The notes under the pieces: model-generated
Told to the model about the DNA's origin: nothing
The model's input: the letters and a program-made list of their open reading frames with translations, nothing else
The model's database searches: none
Shown here: positions 12,008 to 62,344 of the stretch, in pieces
Layout of the letters: every line of letters begins with the position of its first letter
Position numbering within the stretch: the first letter of the stretch is position 1
Origin: Helicobacter sp. 16-1353
Lineage (GTDB): Bacteria; Campylobacterota; Campylobacteria; Campylobacterales; Helicobacteraceae
Assembly: GCF_003288815.1 (NCBI RefSeq)
Contig: NZ_NHYM01000010.1
Coordinates: 1 to 64,000 of the forward strand
Direction: 5' to 3'
Length of the DNA: 64,000 nucleotides
Program-made: the position numbers and the translations under genes

Positions 12008-13594
12008 ATGATTAAAATCATTAGAAATATATTTATTACAAGTGCTACTTTTGTATCACTTTTGATATTACTAATTGTAGCTTTTTGGACTTTTGGAAGC
12101 ACTCTTAATATCGCTCTTATTTGCGGAGCTTGTGGGATTATCACAACTATTTTTTATAGCTATTATTTATATAACACTACTCTTATTTTGCAAAATGCCA
12201 CTAAAAAATATATAGAGAAAATAAGCCAAGATTTGGAAAATAATTTGCAAACTTTAAGCGAAAATCTAAACGCAAAAATAGACCAAAACGCTAAAAATCT
12301 AAATGAAAAACTAGATTCTAATCTCAAGGAATTAAGTGCTAATTTAGATTTAAAAACTAGCGAAATAAATGAAAATCTAGAATCTGCCACAAAAAATATA
12401 AGCGAAAATATCGCTAAAAATAAAGCGGAATTAGATAAGAATTTAGAGGCAAAAACTAAAAATCTAAATGAAAAACTAGATTCTAGCTTTAAAGATTTAA
12501 GTGCGAATCTAGAATCAAAAACAAAAGATTTACGCAAAGATTTAAGCCAAAATCATAAGGAATTGAGTGAAAATCTAAATAAGCAATCCAAAGAAATCCG
12601 CCAAGAAATTACTGAAAAAATCGATGAAACGCAAGAAAAACTAGAAAATAAAATAGAAAAAATCGACGATAAGCTAGATTCTAATATCAAAGAATTAACT
12701 GCGAATTTGGATTCTAAAACCAAGGATTTAAGGGAAAATCTAGAATCCGCCACAAAAGATTTAAACGAAAAACTCGACTTGCAATCTAAAGAGGCAAGAG
12801 AAAATTTGGAATCCCTAAATAAAAACATAGATTCCAAGCTCAAAGAATCTAATGAAAATGTTTTAAAAATTGTAAATGACCTATTTGAGGGACTTTCAAA
12901 AGAAATGCTAGAGAAGCTAAAAGATTCCGCTTCAAGCGTGGAATCTCTAAAAGCCCAAATCACCCAAGATTCGCAGAATCTAGATTCCAAAATCACCAAA
13001 GATTTACAAAAATTAGAATCCAAAATCGCCCAAAATACGGAGAATCTAGATTCCCTAAAAGCTCAAATCGCCCACGATTTAGCTCTAAATATGGAATCCT
13101 TAAAAGCGATTTTAAGCCAACAAAAAAGCCAAGATTCAAATGAAAATTTAAGCGAATCTTTAAATAAAAATTTCAAAGAGATGAATCTAAAGATAGAGCA
13201 ACTCGCATTAAATTTAAGAATGCTTGGGCGGAGCAGAAAGTCTCCAGCAGATTCTATAGATTCCGCGGAATCTACAAAATTCGCAGATTCCGCCACAGAA
13301 AATGAGCCAGAAAACGAGCTAGAAAAAGCACTCTCTCCAAATGAAAAAATTGAGAATAAATTTGACAAAAATAACAATCTAATATCAAGTCAAAAATTTA
13401 AAAACAATCACAAAATATATGAGGCGTTTTATAAAAATGGGCGGATTTTTAAGACGCAGAGCTTCGATGAAAAGGGCAAGCTTGCCCTAGAATTAGAGCT
13501 AAGCCCAAGCGGACAAATCAAGCAAAGAAAGGAGATTATAGAGGGAAAAGAGCGGATTATAAAATTTGATGAGAATGGAAACAAACTAAATTAA
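12008..13594 (+). CDS. Membrane-anchored 11-residue-repeat rod protein with MORN/YwqK-like tail
   Basis: The 528-residue product has two N-terminal membrane helices (about 5-29 and 33-58), then a long charged helical region. From about residue 98 to 273 it is built of sixteen consecutive 11-residue units such as LNEKLDSNLKE, LSANLDLKTSE, INENLESATKN and LDKNLEAKTKN. Less regular coiled coil follows to about 405, then an acidic linker. The last 80 residues (KIYEAFYKNGRIFKTQSFDEKGKL and similar) look like MORN-variant/YwqK repeats. Function is unknown; the topology suggests a cytoplasmic rod tethered to the membrane. It leads a four-gene operon, with 12 bp to the next start. Confidence 0.75.
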   Translation: MIKIIRNIFITSATFVSLLILLIVAFWTFGSTLNIALICGACGIITTIFYSYYLYNTTLILQNATKKYIEKISQDLENNLQTLSENLNAKIDQNAKNLNEKLDSNLKELSANLDLKTSEINENLESATKNISENIAKNKAELDKNLEAKTKNLNEKLDSSFKDLSANLESKTKDLRKDLSQNHKELSENLNKQSKEIRQEITEKIDETQEKLENKIEKIDDKLDSNIKELTANLDSKTKDLRENLESATKDLNEKLDLQSKEARENLESLNKNIDSKLKESNENVLKIVNDLFEGLSKEMLEKLKDSASSVESLKAQITQDSQNLDSKITKDLQKLESKIAQNTENLDSLKAQIAHDLALNMESLKAILSQQKSQDSNENLSESLNKNFKEMNLKIEQLALNLRMLGRSRKSPADSIDSAESTKFADSATENEPENELEKALSPNEKIENKFDKNNNLISSQKFKNNHKIYEAFYKNGRIFKTQSFDEKGKLALELELSPSGQIKQRKEIIEGKERIIKFDENGNKLN

Positions 13595-58068: not shown

Positions 58069-58518
58069 TTGAGAGTAAAAATGCTATTAAAAGATATATT
58101 GGATTATGGGATTCTGGGATTTTTGATATTTTTAAGTGTGGTTGTTTTGAGCTTGATTTTAGAGAGAATCTATACATTTAAAAAGATTGATTTTTTAAGT
58201 TATGTTGATAGAAAATCACTTGAGATTGATTTAACCAAGAATCTAACGCTAATCGCCACAATCGGTTCAAATGCCCCGTATGTCGGGCTTTTAGGAACGG
58301 TTGGGGGGATTATGCTTACATTTATTGAGATTGGTCAAAATGATATGGTAAATACACAGGCTATTATGACTGGATTAGCTTTAGCGTTGAAAGCGACAGC
58401 TCTTGGGCTTGTTGTGGCAATTCCTGCGATTGTTGCATATAATCTATTGCTTAGAAAAAGTGAGGTTTTGCTTTTAAAATGGGATGTTGCACACGAAATT
58501 AATGATTTTAGTATATAG
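58069..58518 (+). CDS. exbB: ExbB-type proton channel subunit
   Basis: The 149-residue protein has three membrane helices. The channel region TIGSNAPYVGLLGTVGGIMLTF and ATALGLVVAIPAIVAYN is the MotA/TolQ/ExbB signature. It is the short form common in Campylobacterota and, with ExbD, would couple proton flow to outer-membrane transport. TonB is not in the window. It leads the operon exbB-exbD-small protein-ZorA-like gene. Confidence 0.9.
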   Translation: MRVKMLLKDILDYGILGFLIFLSVVVLSLILERIYTFKKIDFLSYVDRKSLEIDLTKNLTLIATIGSNAPYVGLLGTVGGIMLTFIEIGQNDMVNTQAIMTGLALALKATALGLVVAIPAIVAYNLLLRKSEVLLLKWDVAHEINDFSI

Positions 58519-58534: not shown

Positions 58535-58930
58535 ATGAAAAAAATAGATTCTCTAAATCTCGTTCCATTTATCGATATTGTGCTAGTTCTACTCGTGATT
58601 GTGCTAACTACAGCTTCTTTTATATCACAAAATCGCATTGATATAGATATTCCAAAGGTTGATAATGCACAAAGTGCCTCTACAAGCCTAAATAAAGATG
58701 ATAGAATAATCACAATAAAAAAAGATGGAGAGTTTTACTTCGATGATAAAAAAGTTAATTTAGAAGAGTTGGAGTTGTTTATCTCGAGACTTCCAAAAGA
58801 TTCTAGTATTGTTATAAATGGTGATAAGGAAAGTAATTTTGATAGTTTTATTGCAGTTATGAATCTACTTCAAAAGTTGGATTACCAAAATCTATATGTT
58901 TTGGTTGATGAAAAAAATCAAGAAAAATAA
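58535..58930 (+). CDS. exbD: ExbD-type subunit
   Basis: The 131-residue protein has one N-terminal membrane helix, LVPFIDIVLVLLVIVLTTAS, with the proton-carrying Asp at residue 14. A periplasmic domain ends in VMNLLQKLDYQNLYVLVDEK. Size and layout are those of ExbD/TolR. It is the partner of ExbB, 16 bp after it. Confidence 0.9.
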   Translation: MKKIDSLNLVPFIDIVLVLLVIVLTTASFISQNRIDIDIPKVDNAQSASTSLNKDDRIITIKKDGEFYFDDKKVNLEELELFISRLPKDSSIVINGDKESNFDSFIAVMNLLQKLDYQNLYVLVDEKNQEK

Positions 58931-58945
58931 AGATAGGGAGGAATT

Positions 58946-59119
58946 ATGTTTGCACAAAACTATACATTAGAGTTGATATTTTCAGCCATTATTACTATGG
59001 CAGTTATATTGATTGCTATTCGTATTTATTTGAATATCATCAATAAACCTTCTGGGATAACAAAACCTGATTGGATGAGTGATAGCGATTTTGAGGATAA
59101 ATTTGGCAAAAGAAAATAA
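58946..59119 (+). CDS. Small single-helix membrane protein between exbD and the ZorA-like gene
   Basis: A 57-residue frame follows a strong GGGAGG site. It reads a helix (LIFSAIITMAVILIAIRIYL, about residues 11-30) followed by a hydrophilic tail NKPSGITKPDWMSDSDFEDK. It lies 15 bp after exbD and 24 bp before the next gene, so it is a genuine operon member by spacing. No family is recognised. It may be an accessory subunit of one of the two stator-like complexes. Confidence 0.7.
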   Translation: MFAQNYTLELIFSAIITMAVILIAIRIYLNIINKPSGITKPDWMSDSDFEDKFGKRK

Positions 59120-59143: not shown

Positions 59144-61033
59144 ATGGTAATTAATATAATTTTTACGGTATTCATGATAATCCTAGCAATTATTGATATA
59201 AGAACCACAAAAACAGCAAATCATAGAGATTTTAAATCCATCATAATGACTTTTGGGGTTTTGGGAACTTTTATCGGTGTTTTTATAGGGCTTTTGGGAT
59301 TTGATATAAATAATATCGAAACTTCTGTCCCACATCTTTTAGATGGGCTAAAAATCGCATTTTACACTTCTATCGCTGGAATGAGCATAGCTATTATCAT
59401 TAGTATATATCAGCGTTCAATTGGCTTTAAAATAGATAATAAAGATAATCTAGATTTTATCACCATACAAAGCAAGAAATTTGATAAATTAGATGAGTTA
59501 TCAAATATTTCTAATATAAATAAGGAATCTAAAAATATCTTATTGGAATTAAAAGAAATATTTAATAAATCATTTGATATTAATGAAAAAATATATTCTC
59601 AAATGGTTGATTCCAATGACAATATTAAAATACTTATAGAATCTAATAATATCTTAAACAACACATCAAAAGACATAGTAAAGCAAATCGAGAATCTAAA
59701 TACATCTTTTACAAAAGAGATTCAGAATCTTTCAAATGATTTAAGCAATGTTTTAAATAACACATCAAAAGACATAGTAAAACAAATCGAGAATCTAAAT
59801 ACATCTTTTACAAAAGAGATTGAAAAGCTTTCAAATGATTTTAGTGCCGATGTTATCTGCTCTATCAATAATCTTTCAACTGAATTTACAAATACGATTA
59901 ATCTACATTTTAGTGAGAATTTTAAGCGATTTAATAAAGCTGTGGATAATCTTTTAGAATGGCAAAAAGAGCAGAAGAAAAATATATTAGATTCCAATGA
60001 CATTCTAACCCAATCATCTAAATCGCTCCAAACAATAGATAAGGTTATTCATAATATTATGGAGCGAGATGAAAAAACAATAGAGCTTTATAAAGAAGTT
60101 ACATCTATAATGAAAGATTATAAAACACAAAATCTCATCTTAGATGAAAAACTACAATCTATGCGTGATTTAGGCAATGGTGCATTGCAATCTTTAAAAT
60201 TTATGAATACATTTTTTAATGACTTAAATCATCATCTTAAATCAACAAATGAAACCCTAATAACAAACACAAAAGCCACTATTGATAATGTATTTATTGC
60301 AACGATTAAGGATTTTGAATCTATCAATAAAAATGTGATAAATAATATGAAAGATAGAGATGAATCGCTACTTAAATCCATAGAATCTTCTGTAAAAATA
60401 GTGCAGAATCTAGCTAATTCAATGATTGAAGGAAATAAGATTCTCTCTCAAAACTACCAAAAGCTAAATAAAGATTTAGAATTAAATGTCAAGGCTATTA
60501 GCCAAAATACAAGTGAAATGATAAGCAATATAAACAAAGAGGGCATAAAACATCTTAAAAATACAACGAAATTATATTTTAATGATATTTCTAACACACA
60601 ACATAAAATCTTAAATAATATGTCAAATCAAATCAGTAAAAATCAAGAAATGTTAGATTCTACGCTCTTAAATCTTATTAATAAATATCTAGAATCTTTA
60701 GAGCAGATAACAATCTCAAGTATAAAAGCATCAAAAGATATAAATCTCTCCAATATAGAGGATATTAAATATCTAAATAATGAGATTACAAGCTATATAA
60801 AAGACAATGTATCATCACTAAATAAATCCAATTTAGAGTTATTAAATATACTAGAGCTTTTAAATAAACAGATTGAGGATTCTAATAATACAAGTAAAAT
60901 AATGCAAACTAGGGCAAAAGATTCGATAAAAAATATAGAGGATTCTTTGCAACAAGTAAGTGATGGTTTTAAAAATGATTATGAGTGGTTTTTACGCAGG
61001 ATTCGAGATATTATCGGGCAGAGATTAAATTAA
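59144..61033 (+). CDS. ZorA-like MotA/ExbB-family protein with very long helical tail
   Basis: The 629-residue protein has a first helix (about 2-18). A MotA/TolQ/ExbB-type channel pair follows: SIIMTFGVLGTFIGVFIGLLGFD (about 29-51) and LLDGLKIAFYTSIAGMSIAIIISIY (about 64-88). The remaining 540 residues are charged, Asn/Lys/Ser-rich helix. This is the design of ZorA, the stator-like subunit of Zorya anti-phage systems, with a cytoplasmic tail. No ZorB (peptidoglycan-binding) or ZorC/D/E gene is adjacent; the small ExbD upstream is the only possible partner. Residues about 170-235 contain a 33-residue tandem repeat. It may be a defence subunit or a different motor-like complex. Confidence 0.6.
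   Translation: MVINIIFTVFMIILAIIDIRTTKTANHRDFKSIIMTFGVLGTFIGVFIGLLGFDINNIETSVPHLLDGLKIAFYTSIAGMSIAIIISIYQRSIGFKIDNKDNLDFITIQSKKFDKLDELSNISNINKESKNILLELKEIFNKSFDINEKIYSQMVDSNDNIKILIESNNILNNTSKDIVKQIENLNTSFTKEIQNLSNDLSNVLNNTSKDIVKQIENLNTSFTKEIEKLSNDFSADVICSINNLSTEFTNTINLHFSENFKRFNKAVDNLLEWQKEQKKNILDSNDILTQSSKSLQTIDKVIHNIMERDEKTIELYKEVTSIMKDYKTQNLILDEKLQSMRDLGNGALQSLKFMNTFFNDLNHHLKSTNETLITNTKATIDNVFIATIKDFESINKNVINNMKDRDESLLKSIESSVKIVQNLANSMIEGNKILSQNYQKLNKDLELNVKAISQNTSEMISNINKEGIKHLKNTTKLYFNDISNTQHKILNNMSNQISKNQEMLDSTLLNLINKYLESLEQITISSIKASKDINLSNIEDIKYLNNEITSYIKDNVSSLNKSNLELLNILELLNKQIEDSNNTSKIMQTRAKDSIKNIEDSLQQVSDGFKNDYEWFLRRIRDIIGQRLN
59660..59857 (+). repeat. 99-bp tandem duplication within the ZorA-like tail
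   Basis: The DNA beginning AACACATCAAAAGACATAGT at 59660 recurs at 59759 with few changes over roughly the first 70 bases. The repeat unit is 33 residues (NNTSKDIVKQIENLNTSFTK and on), three times eleven, consistent with a helical rod lengthened by duplication. Confidence 0.8.
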
Positions 61034-61177: not shown

Positions 61178-62344
61178 ATGTTTGCAATTGATTTTAGACC
61201 TAAAAATTTAAGCGAATTTGTCGGGCAGAAGCACCTTGTGGGTGAAAATGCCCCCATTGCAAATATGATAAAAAATAATTCCCTAATCCATATGTTTTTT
61301 TACGGACCGCCCGGAAGTGGGAAAACGACCTTAGCTAGGATAATTGCCAAGGAACTCGCATTAGATTTTATGGAGTTTAACGCCACTTCATTTAAAGCAG
61401 AATCTTTGCGTAAGGTTGTTTCACAAGATTCCCTAATTAAGCCAATTATTTTTATCGATGAGATTCACCGCCTAAACAAAGCCCAGCAGGAGATTCTGCT
61501 CCCTATAATGGAGAATTTTTGGGCGATAATTTTGGGGGCTTCGACTTATAATCCATATTCCGCCCTAACCAATGCCATTCGCTCTCGTTCGCTTATTTTT
61601 GAGTTTAAGGCGTTAAGTTCGCGTGATTTGGGGGAGATTCTAGATTCTATAGCTTTAAAAAATGAGCTTGTTTTAAATGCAGAATCTAGGGAGTATATCA
61701 TTAATACTAGTGGCGGAGACTGCCGAGCTATGCTTAATTTACTAGATATTGCAAAGAGTGATTTGAGTTTAAATAATCTAAAAGCAATCCGCCCGATTTC
61801 GATGAATGAGGGCGTAAGCGAGGATTCCACGCATTATGATTTGATTTCTGCACTCATTAAAAGCATTCGTGGGAGCGATGAGAATGCGAGTATCTACTAC
61901 CTTGCAAGGCTTATTAAGGCTGGGGAAAATCCGGAGTTTATCGCAAGGAGGCTTGTGATTTTGGCTAGTGAAGATATTGGCAATGCCAATCCAAATGCCC
62001 TAAATATCGCCACAAACACGATGTTAGCAGTCTCTAAAATCGGCTATCCAGAATCTAGGATAATTCTTTCTCAATGCGTCCTTTATCTAGCGAGTTCCCC
62101 AAAGTCAAATACCGCTTATAAGGCGATAGATGGGGCGTTGGAGTATATCGAAAATAATAAGCTAGAGATTCCACCCCATATTAAAAACTTCAATAAAAAC
62201 TACAAATATCCCCATGATTTCGGTGGCTGGGTAAAGCAACAATATCTCCCAAGAGATTTGAAATTCGTCGAGTGGAGCGATATTGGCTTTGAAAAAACAC
62301 TCCAAGAATGGCTTCAAAAAATTAAAAAAACATTTCACAAATAA
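61178..62344 (+). CDS. rarA: Replication-associated recombination protein A (RarA/MgsA)
   Basis: RarA is an AAA+ ATPase acting at stalled replication forks. The 388-residue protein has FRPKNLSEFVGQKHLVG, Walker A FYGPPGSGKTTLA at about 41-53, Walker B IFIDEIHRLNKAQQE near 91, ILGASTYNPYSALTNAIRSRS (sensor and Arg finger) and a C-terminal tetramerisation part ending in KFVEWSDIGFEKTLQEW. A related helicase-like gene accompanies cbpA-hspR in H. pylori; here the exbB operon lies between. Confidence 0.94.
   Translation: MFAIDFRPKNLSEFVGQKHLVGENAPIANMIKNNSLIHMFFYGPPGSGKTTLARIIAKELALDFMEFNATSFKAESLRKVVSQDSLIKPIIFIDEIHRLNKAQQEILLPIMENFWAIILGASTYNPYSALTNAIRSRSLIFEFKALSSRDLGEILDSIALKNELVLNAESREYIINTSGGDCRAMLNLLDIAKSDLSLNNLKAIRPISMNEGVSEDSTHYDLISALIKSIRGSDENASIYYLARLIKAGENPEFIARRLVILASEDIGNANPNALNIATNTMLAVSKIGYPESRIILSQCVLYLASSPKSNTAYKAIDGALEYIENNKLEIPPHIKNFNKNYKYPHDFGGWVKQQYLPRDLKFVEWSDIGFEKTLQEWLQKIKKTFHK

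Follow-up and report, generated by a model that had tools for sequence, protein, structure and literature searches.

The Zorya type II system builds an ion-driven ZorAB complex of 5:2 stoichiometry with a bundled tail, in which ZorB binds peptidoglycan; ZorAB recruits the DNA-nicking ZorE (PMC11890865). All components are required against T7, and ZorAB without ZorE gives no protection in E. coli; the type II references used here are the ZorAB of S. kujiense (PDB 8VVI) and the system of E. coli ATCC 8739 (PMC11890865). Zorya type I (ZorA1-ZorB1-ZorC-ZorD; PDB 8QYD and 8VVN) has a motor of the same 5:2 family with a long ZorA tail, and ExbB, TolQ and MotA belong to the same superfamily of ion-driven inner-membrane motors. 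A literature search of limited reach returned no report of Zorya-like genes of the kind described below in Helicobacter.

The zorA-like gene and its neighbours

The window (the whole stretch of DNA analysed, 64,000 nucleotides of Helicobacter sp. 16-1353) encodes a ZorA-like protein in a compact gene cluster. The reading frame, transmembrane segments, long helical tail, upstream exbB, exbD and 57-residue gene and downstream rarA described by the first-pass annotation are all present:

58069..58518, + strand: exbB (exbB2 equivalog, 157 bits), a conserved neighbour
58535..58930, + strand: exbD (ExbD_2/TolR family), a conserved neighbour
58946..59119, + strand: gene for a 57-residue single-TM protein with a conserved KPDW motif
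59144..61033, + strand: zorA-like gene, 629 residues, frame intact (open-reading-frame list, PADLOC, AlphaFold2)
59654..59841, + strand: tandem duplication in the zorA tail, 99 bp in frame, 1.9 copies, 94% identical
61178..62344, + strand: rarA/mgsA, 144 bp after zorA

The intergenic gaps from exbB to zorA measure 15-24 bp, and promoter and terminator scans gave results near chance level. The start of exbB is listed as TTG, with an ATG 12 bases downstream. ExbD probably works with the adjoining ExbB, and rarA is a neighbour outside the zorA system. The 57-residue protein is judged by its conservation to be a real gene product; its gene occurs in 28 of the 121 genomes of the family, each of which also encodes ZorA, and is confined to genera g1, g3, g7 and g8.

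The zorA product begins with three transmembrane helices (TM1 ~2-21, TM2 ~31-51, TM3 ~58-92), followed by a helical tail of ~530 residues; further landmarks are a conserved NFKxxNxAVxxLLxWQ region (~259-274) and a conserved tip, DYEWFLRRIRDIIGQR (the DYEWFLRRIREL tip). AlphaFold2 places helices at 2-21, 31-51 and 58-92 and predicts the rest to be nearly all helical at low confidence (mean pLDDT 66; pTM 0.24), a quality insufficient for a fold search. The kinship with ZorA proposed by the first-pass annotation is borne out far beyond chance by HMM comparison, in which the PADLOC ZorA2 model matches the window protein at 6.1e-33 and the ZorA family profile matches S. kujiense ZorA (chain 8VVI_F) at 5.9e-65, with an alignment that runs past the membrane part and through the NFKxLNxAV...WQ motif. 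Because of these two matches, and because Pfam MotA_ExbB stays below its cut-off (17.8 bits against 22.9), the protein is judged a homologue of type II ZorA and more than MotA-like; the long tail and a ZorB2-type partner likewise distinguish the protein from the ExbB/TolQ/MotA superfamily. The NCBIfam ZorA2 score of 67 bits is under that model's 700-bit cut-off, as is the score of the true Zorya II ZorA of genome G029 (116 bits). The family profiles match type I more weakly (8QYD ZorA 2.7e-17, ZorB 4.1e-12), and no ZorC or ZorD was recognised among the neighbours. Searches with PF15611 (ZorC) and DUF3348 (Zorya type III) gave no match, the controls being equally silent. On sequence grounds, the window protein is assigned to the type II branch of ZorA. 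A weak match to the ZorA2 profile (6e-5) at 12491-12859 of the window, within a 564-codon frame, probably marks another coiled-coil protein.

Tail length ranges between 503 and 1128 residues across the long-tailed core ZorAs of the Helicobacteraceae (603-1228 residues in all, in contrast to a median of 395 for the ZorE-linked ZorAs of the loci read), with a hydrophobic period of 3.65, close to 11/3. The 99-bp in-frame duplication, which adds 33 residues (3 x 11) and was not found in the congener G001, shows growth of the tail in the window copy. The tip is constant: the pattern Y[EQ][WI]F[LI], picked after viewing the alignment, fits all 37 core ZorAs and none of 23 ZorAs from ZorE-bearing loci, the terminal motif of which is related but looser.

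A zorB gene on another contig

ZorB is absent locally from the window, as the first-pass annotation stated, but not from the genome, another contig of which carries the gene:

G000:C2:22876-23580, + strand: zorB

Its product is 73% identical to the zorA-adjacent ZorB of G001, and in most relatives a ZorB2-type gene immediately follows zorA. The protein matches PADLOC ZorB2 (4.1e-66) and also Pfam OmpA, the ZorB family profile matches 8VVI ZorB (1.9e-71), and its AlphaFold model is matched best in the PDB by the ZorB chains of 8VVI. D12, H142, S144 and R211 are invariant in the ZorB alignment and align to D21, H135, S137 and the SQRVEF arginine of S. kujiense; by this alignment, ZorB possesses the ion-path aspartate and peptidoglycan-binding residues that characterize ZorB2 of Zorya II. 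Searches of the genome with MotA_ExbB and OmpA set its other ExbB/MotA and OmpA genes apart from ZorB. The relocated zorB (locus G000:C2:20000-27000) adjoins genes for a DUF6996/DUF6997 protein with an N6_N4 DNA methylase and for an AAA_21 ATPase.

The first-pass annotation's idea of an ion-driven complex whose long tail lies in the cytoplasm is supported; its further proposal, that ZorA, ExbD and the 57-residue protein form a new minimal proton-driven complex, is scarcely credible. The tight cluster of the window suits that proposal, as does the order exbB-exbD-57aa-zorA in g1, g3, g7 and part of g8. This order breaks down in the H. bilis group, where ZorAB is kept away from exbBD; g5, g10 and g13 keep ZorAB without the 57-residue gene; and ExbD has its own ExbB. 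With a zorB in the genome, and directly after zorA in most relatives, the complex is not minimal.

Two congeners, G003 and G004, are 99% complete and have no ZorB. By ExbB, ExbD and the 57-residue protein, the window genome is no more distant from them than from G001, whereas the identity of its ZorA over TM2-TM3 is 39-41% to G003 and G004 versus 74% to G001. Both genomes have V for T42 and L for S76, two residues that do not vary in 37 other ZorAs, although ExbD still adjoins zorA; the pairing of ZorA with ExbD was rejected, both on this decay and on the presence of ZorB in the window genome. G003 and G004 retain the tail end of ZorA (56-58%) and a ZorE-like protein (62-65%). Because the channel residues have decayed while the tip and the ZorE-like protein have been kept, these two genomes suggest that the ZorA channel is maintained through its work with ZorB, and that the tail and the ZorE-like protein are of use without the motor.

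A ZorE-like gene behind gmhA

The first trace of ZorE was a pair of weak matches in core genomes of different genera, both directly downstream of gmhA. The gmhA gene was therefore located across the family, and 42 of its neighbourhoods were read; 22 core genomes (g1, g3, g7, g8, g10 and g13) have a ZorE-like gene there, including the window genome:

G000:C30:37186-37776, - strand: ZorE-like gene, 196 residues, directly downstream of gmhA, without an HNH nuclease

No ZorE-like gene lies at gmhA in the ZorA-less genomes read, in four g5 genomes or in G111. A profile search found the gene in 57 genomes, every one of them ZorA-positive, with the g5 and G111 copies at other sites; its G131 match and its second G029 match are true ZorEs. 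The gene is thus present in 57 of 60 ZorA genomes (the exceptions being G097 and G143 (incomplete) and G123) and in none of 61 ZorA-less genomes, an association with a Fisher p of 2e-31 across genomes that are phylogenetically non-independent.

P-x2-H-x3-C and C-x2-C are invariant among the ZorE-like proteins, as in the N-terminus of ZorE, and no HNH region is present in the 20+ members read, the copy of the window genome included. A profile from ten of them picks up true ZorEs beside ZorAB in other phyla (up to 4.6e-14), and hhalign aligns the family to residues 30-154 of G029 ZorE (2.8e-6). The protein of the window genome alone has no PADLOC match below 0.01 and no Pfam family match, and is tied to ZorE via its family; no ZorE model has a match in that genome at 1e-4, and no full-length ZorE was found there. 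These comparisons point to a protein that keeps the N-terminal zinc-type domain of ZorE, the nuclease part being absent. The first-pass annotation had regarded a complete ZorB/C/D set elsewhere in the genome as evidence against its proposal; this applies in part, with ZorB and the ZorE-like gene elsewhere and a ZorC search in which the controls were as silent as the genome.

Several loci add variations. The ZorE-like genes of G111 (L206, 802-2249) and G125 (L208, 509-1964) come after genes for FliJ and for a protein with an MgtE_N-type match, possibly a flagellar-stator neighbourhood. Terasakiispira and Saccharospirillum (L145, L147, L150) have ZorA-ZorB followed by a protein of 164-188 residues resembling a short ZorE without HNH, which parallels the ZorE-like gene of the Helicobacteraceae but in linked form. 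The ZorE of Sulfurovum sp. FS08-3 (L132, 10737-11578) occupies two neighbouring open reading frames, possibly a broken or split gene. In the Thiotrichaceae (Parabeggiatoa, Thiomargarita and relatives; L104, L115, L127, L129, L153), ZorAB occurs without ZorE, mostly in swapped order, and the short ZorA tail ends in a domain (in L153, Pfam Lcl_C at 3.4e-21), making it a fusion of ZorA to another C-terminal module.

Inheritance and proposed function

Among 121 Helicobacteraceae genomes, ZorA is encoded in 60, ZorB in 57 and the ZorE-like protein in 57, with near-complete overlap, and the presence of ZorA and ZorB follows genus boundaries; three genomes, G003, G004 and G143 (58% complete), have ZorA but no ZorB. 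The genes are carried by, among others, H. pullorum, H. cinaedi, H. bilis, H. rodentium, H. trogontum and H. equorum, which are enterohepatic species; the gastric group would lack these genes, as deduced from one genus without matches. The usual site is truB-csrA-ispE-smpB-exbB-exbD-(57aa)-zorA-zorB, with rpmH-rnpA-yidD-yidC downstream in g10 and g13 (gene names mostly assigned by reading translations); in the window genome, zorA, zorB and the ZorE-like gene are on three contigs (C1, C2 and C30). In the ZorB tree, the Helicobacteraceae proteins and that of a single Campylobacterales MAG form one clade (39 rows, 99/99); finer detail is limited by the midpoint rooting and by several long branches. 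No locus of this clade has an adjacent ZorE; ~25 of the other loci have one. The core genes appear to be vertically inherited, at mostly conserved chromosomal sites. Full-length ZorE is encoded in three of the 121 genomes. Two of these, G029 and G114, also have the long-tailed core pair, and therefore a complete Zorya II and the core pair coexist as separate systems; the complete Zorya II of G029 (L053, G029:C18, 3110-5957) consists of ZorE, ZorB and a short ZorA of 434 residues.

NG86 omega values of 0.06-0.18 (ZorA), 0.01-0.09 (ZorB) and 0.09-0.20 (ZorE-like gene) show purifying selection on all three genes, although high dS in several pairs leaves the values rough. This selection, together with frames intact across eight genera, the unvarying tip and retention of the ZorE-like protein even after loss of ZorB, makes it very improbable that the set is a functionless leftover of an ancestral Zorya II in decay, as loss of the nuclease everywhere and the fate of ZorB and the channel in G003 and G004 might indicate.

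The set resembles Zorya II in its ZorA2/ZorB2 homology, its three-TM ZorA with a helical tail, its ZorB residues and the fact that its genome also encodes a protein derived from ZorE. Unlike Zorya II, its genes are scattered rather than forming a zorA-zorB-zorE operon, its ZorE-like protein has no HNH, its ZorA is longer with a tip motif of its own, and it is inherited vertically at conserved sites. Because the HNH nuclease and the operon are missing, the set is not counted as a Zorya II member; it is built from Zorya II parts and is probably alike in its working up to the last step. We favour, with a probability of roughly 55%, a dispersed, vertically inherited, nuclease-free derivative of Zorya II, the lineage-core function of which is to sense or transduce the state of the envelope rather than to act as a stand-alone phage weapon.

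A dispersed but working phage defence, in which ZorAB senses injection and the ZorE-like protein acts without a nuclease or recruits one in trans, seems rather unlikely. Every homologue of known function is anti-phage (PMC11890865), the ion-path and peptidoglycan-binding residues are intact, and zorB of the window genome has a DNA methylase, a DUF6996/6997 protein and an AAA_21 gene for neighbours; set against these are inheritance that is vertical, genus-wide and at mostly fixed sites rather than in sporadic islands, the missing HNH nuclease, the additional complete Zorya II of G029 and G114, and the failure of ZorAB without ZorE to protect E. coli. The link to DNA or phage sensing raised by the first-pass annotation may or may not exist; the sole ZorE-related protein found in the window genome lacks an HNH nuclease.

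In the favoured sensor or transducer, five ZorA and two ZorB would probably assemble in the inner membrane as a motor driven by ions, with ZorB supplying the presumed ion-path aspartate and peptidoglycan anchor. The ZorA tails would bundle into a long rod, the conserved tip of which may act on a cytoplasmic partner, most likely through contact with the unlinked ZorE-like protein encoded behind gmhA. Disturbance of the cell wall could then be passed down the ZorA tail to this partner with the DNA uncut, and a set that passes its signal without DNA cutting would therefore serve as a sensor or transducer of the envelope state. Such a role is probable, reasoning from what has been lost and kept: because the nuclease is gone and the rest is retained, envelope sensing relayed to a non-cutting partner is the likeliest function. 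Somewhat short of even odds, we place the more specific proposal that in several Helicobacteraceae genera a defence machine has become a core cellular device: scattered ZorA, ZorB and nuclease-free ZorE would amount to a lasting system of mechanical signalling from envelope to cytoplasm, which has contact between tail tip and ZorE-like protein as its output and can outlive its motor, as in the congeners without ZorB.

To our knowledge, Zorya motors have so far been described only from phage defence. That almost every member of several genera has both ZorA and the ZorE-like protein suggests that a weapon has been turned into a permanent envelope sensor; with the motor kept, the tail lengthened, the tip frozen and ZorE without its nuclease, sensing would be separated from killing. 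Annotation of ZorA and ZorB alone does not amount to defence. The lineage offers a natural test of the roles of the ZorA tail and the ZorE N-terminal domain, and it singles out the tip of the tail as the likely site of output.
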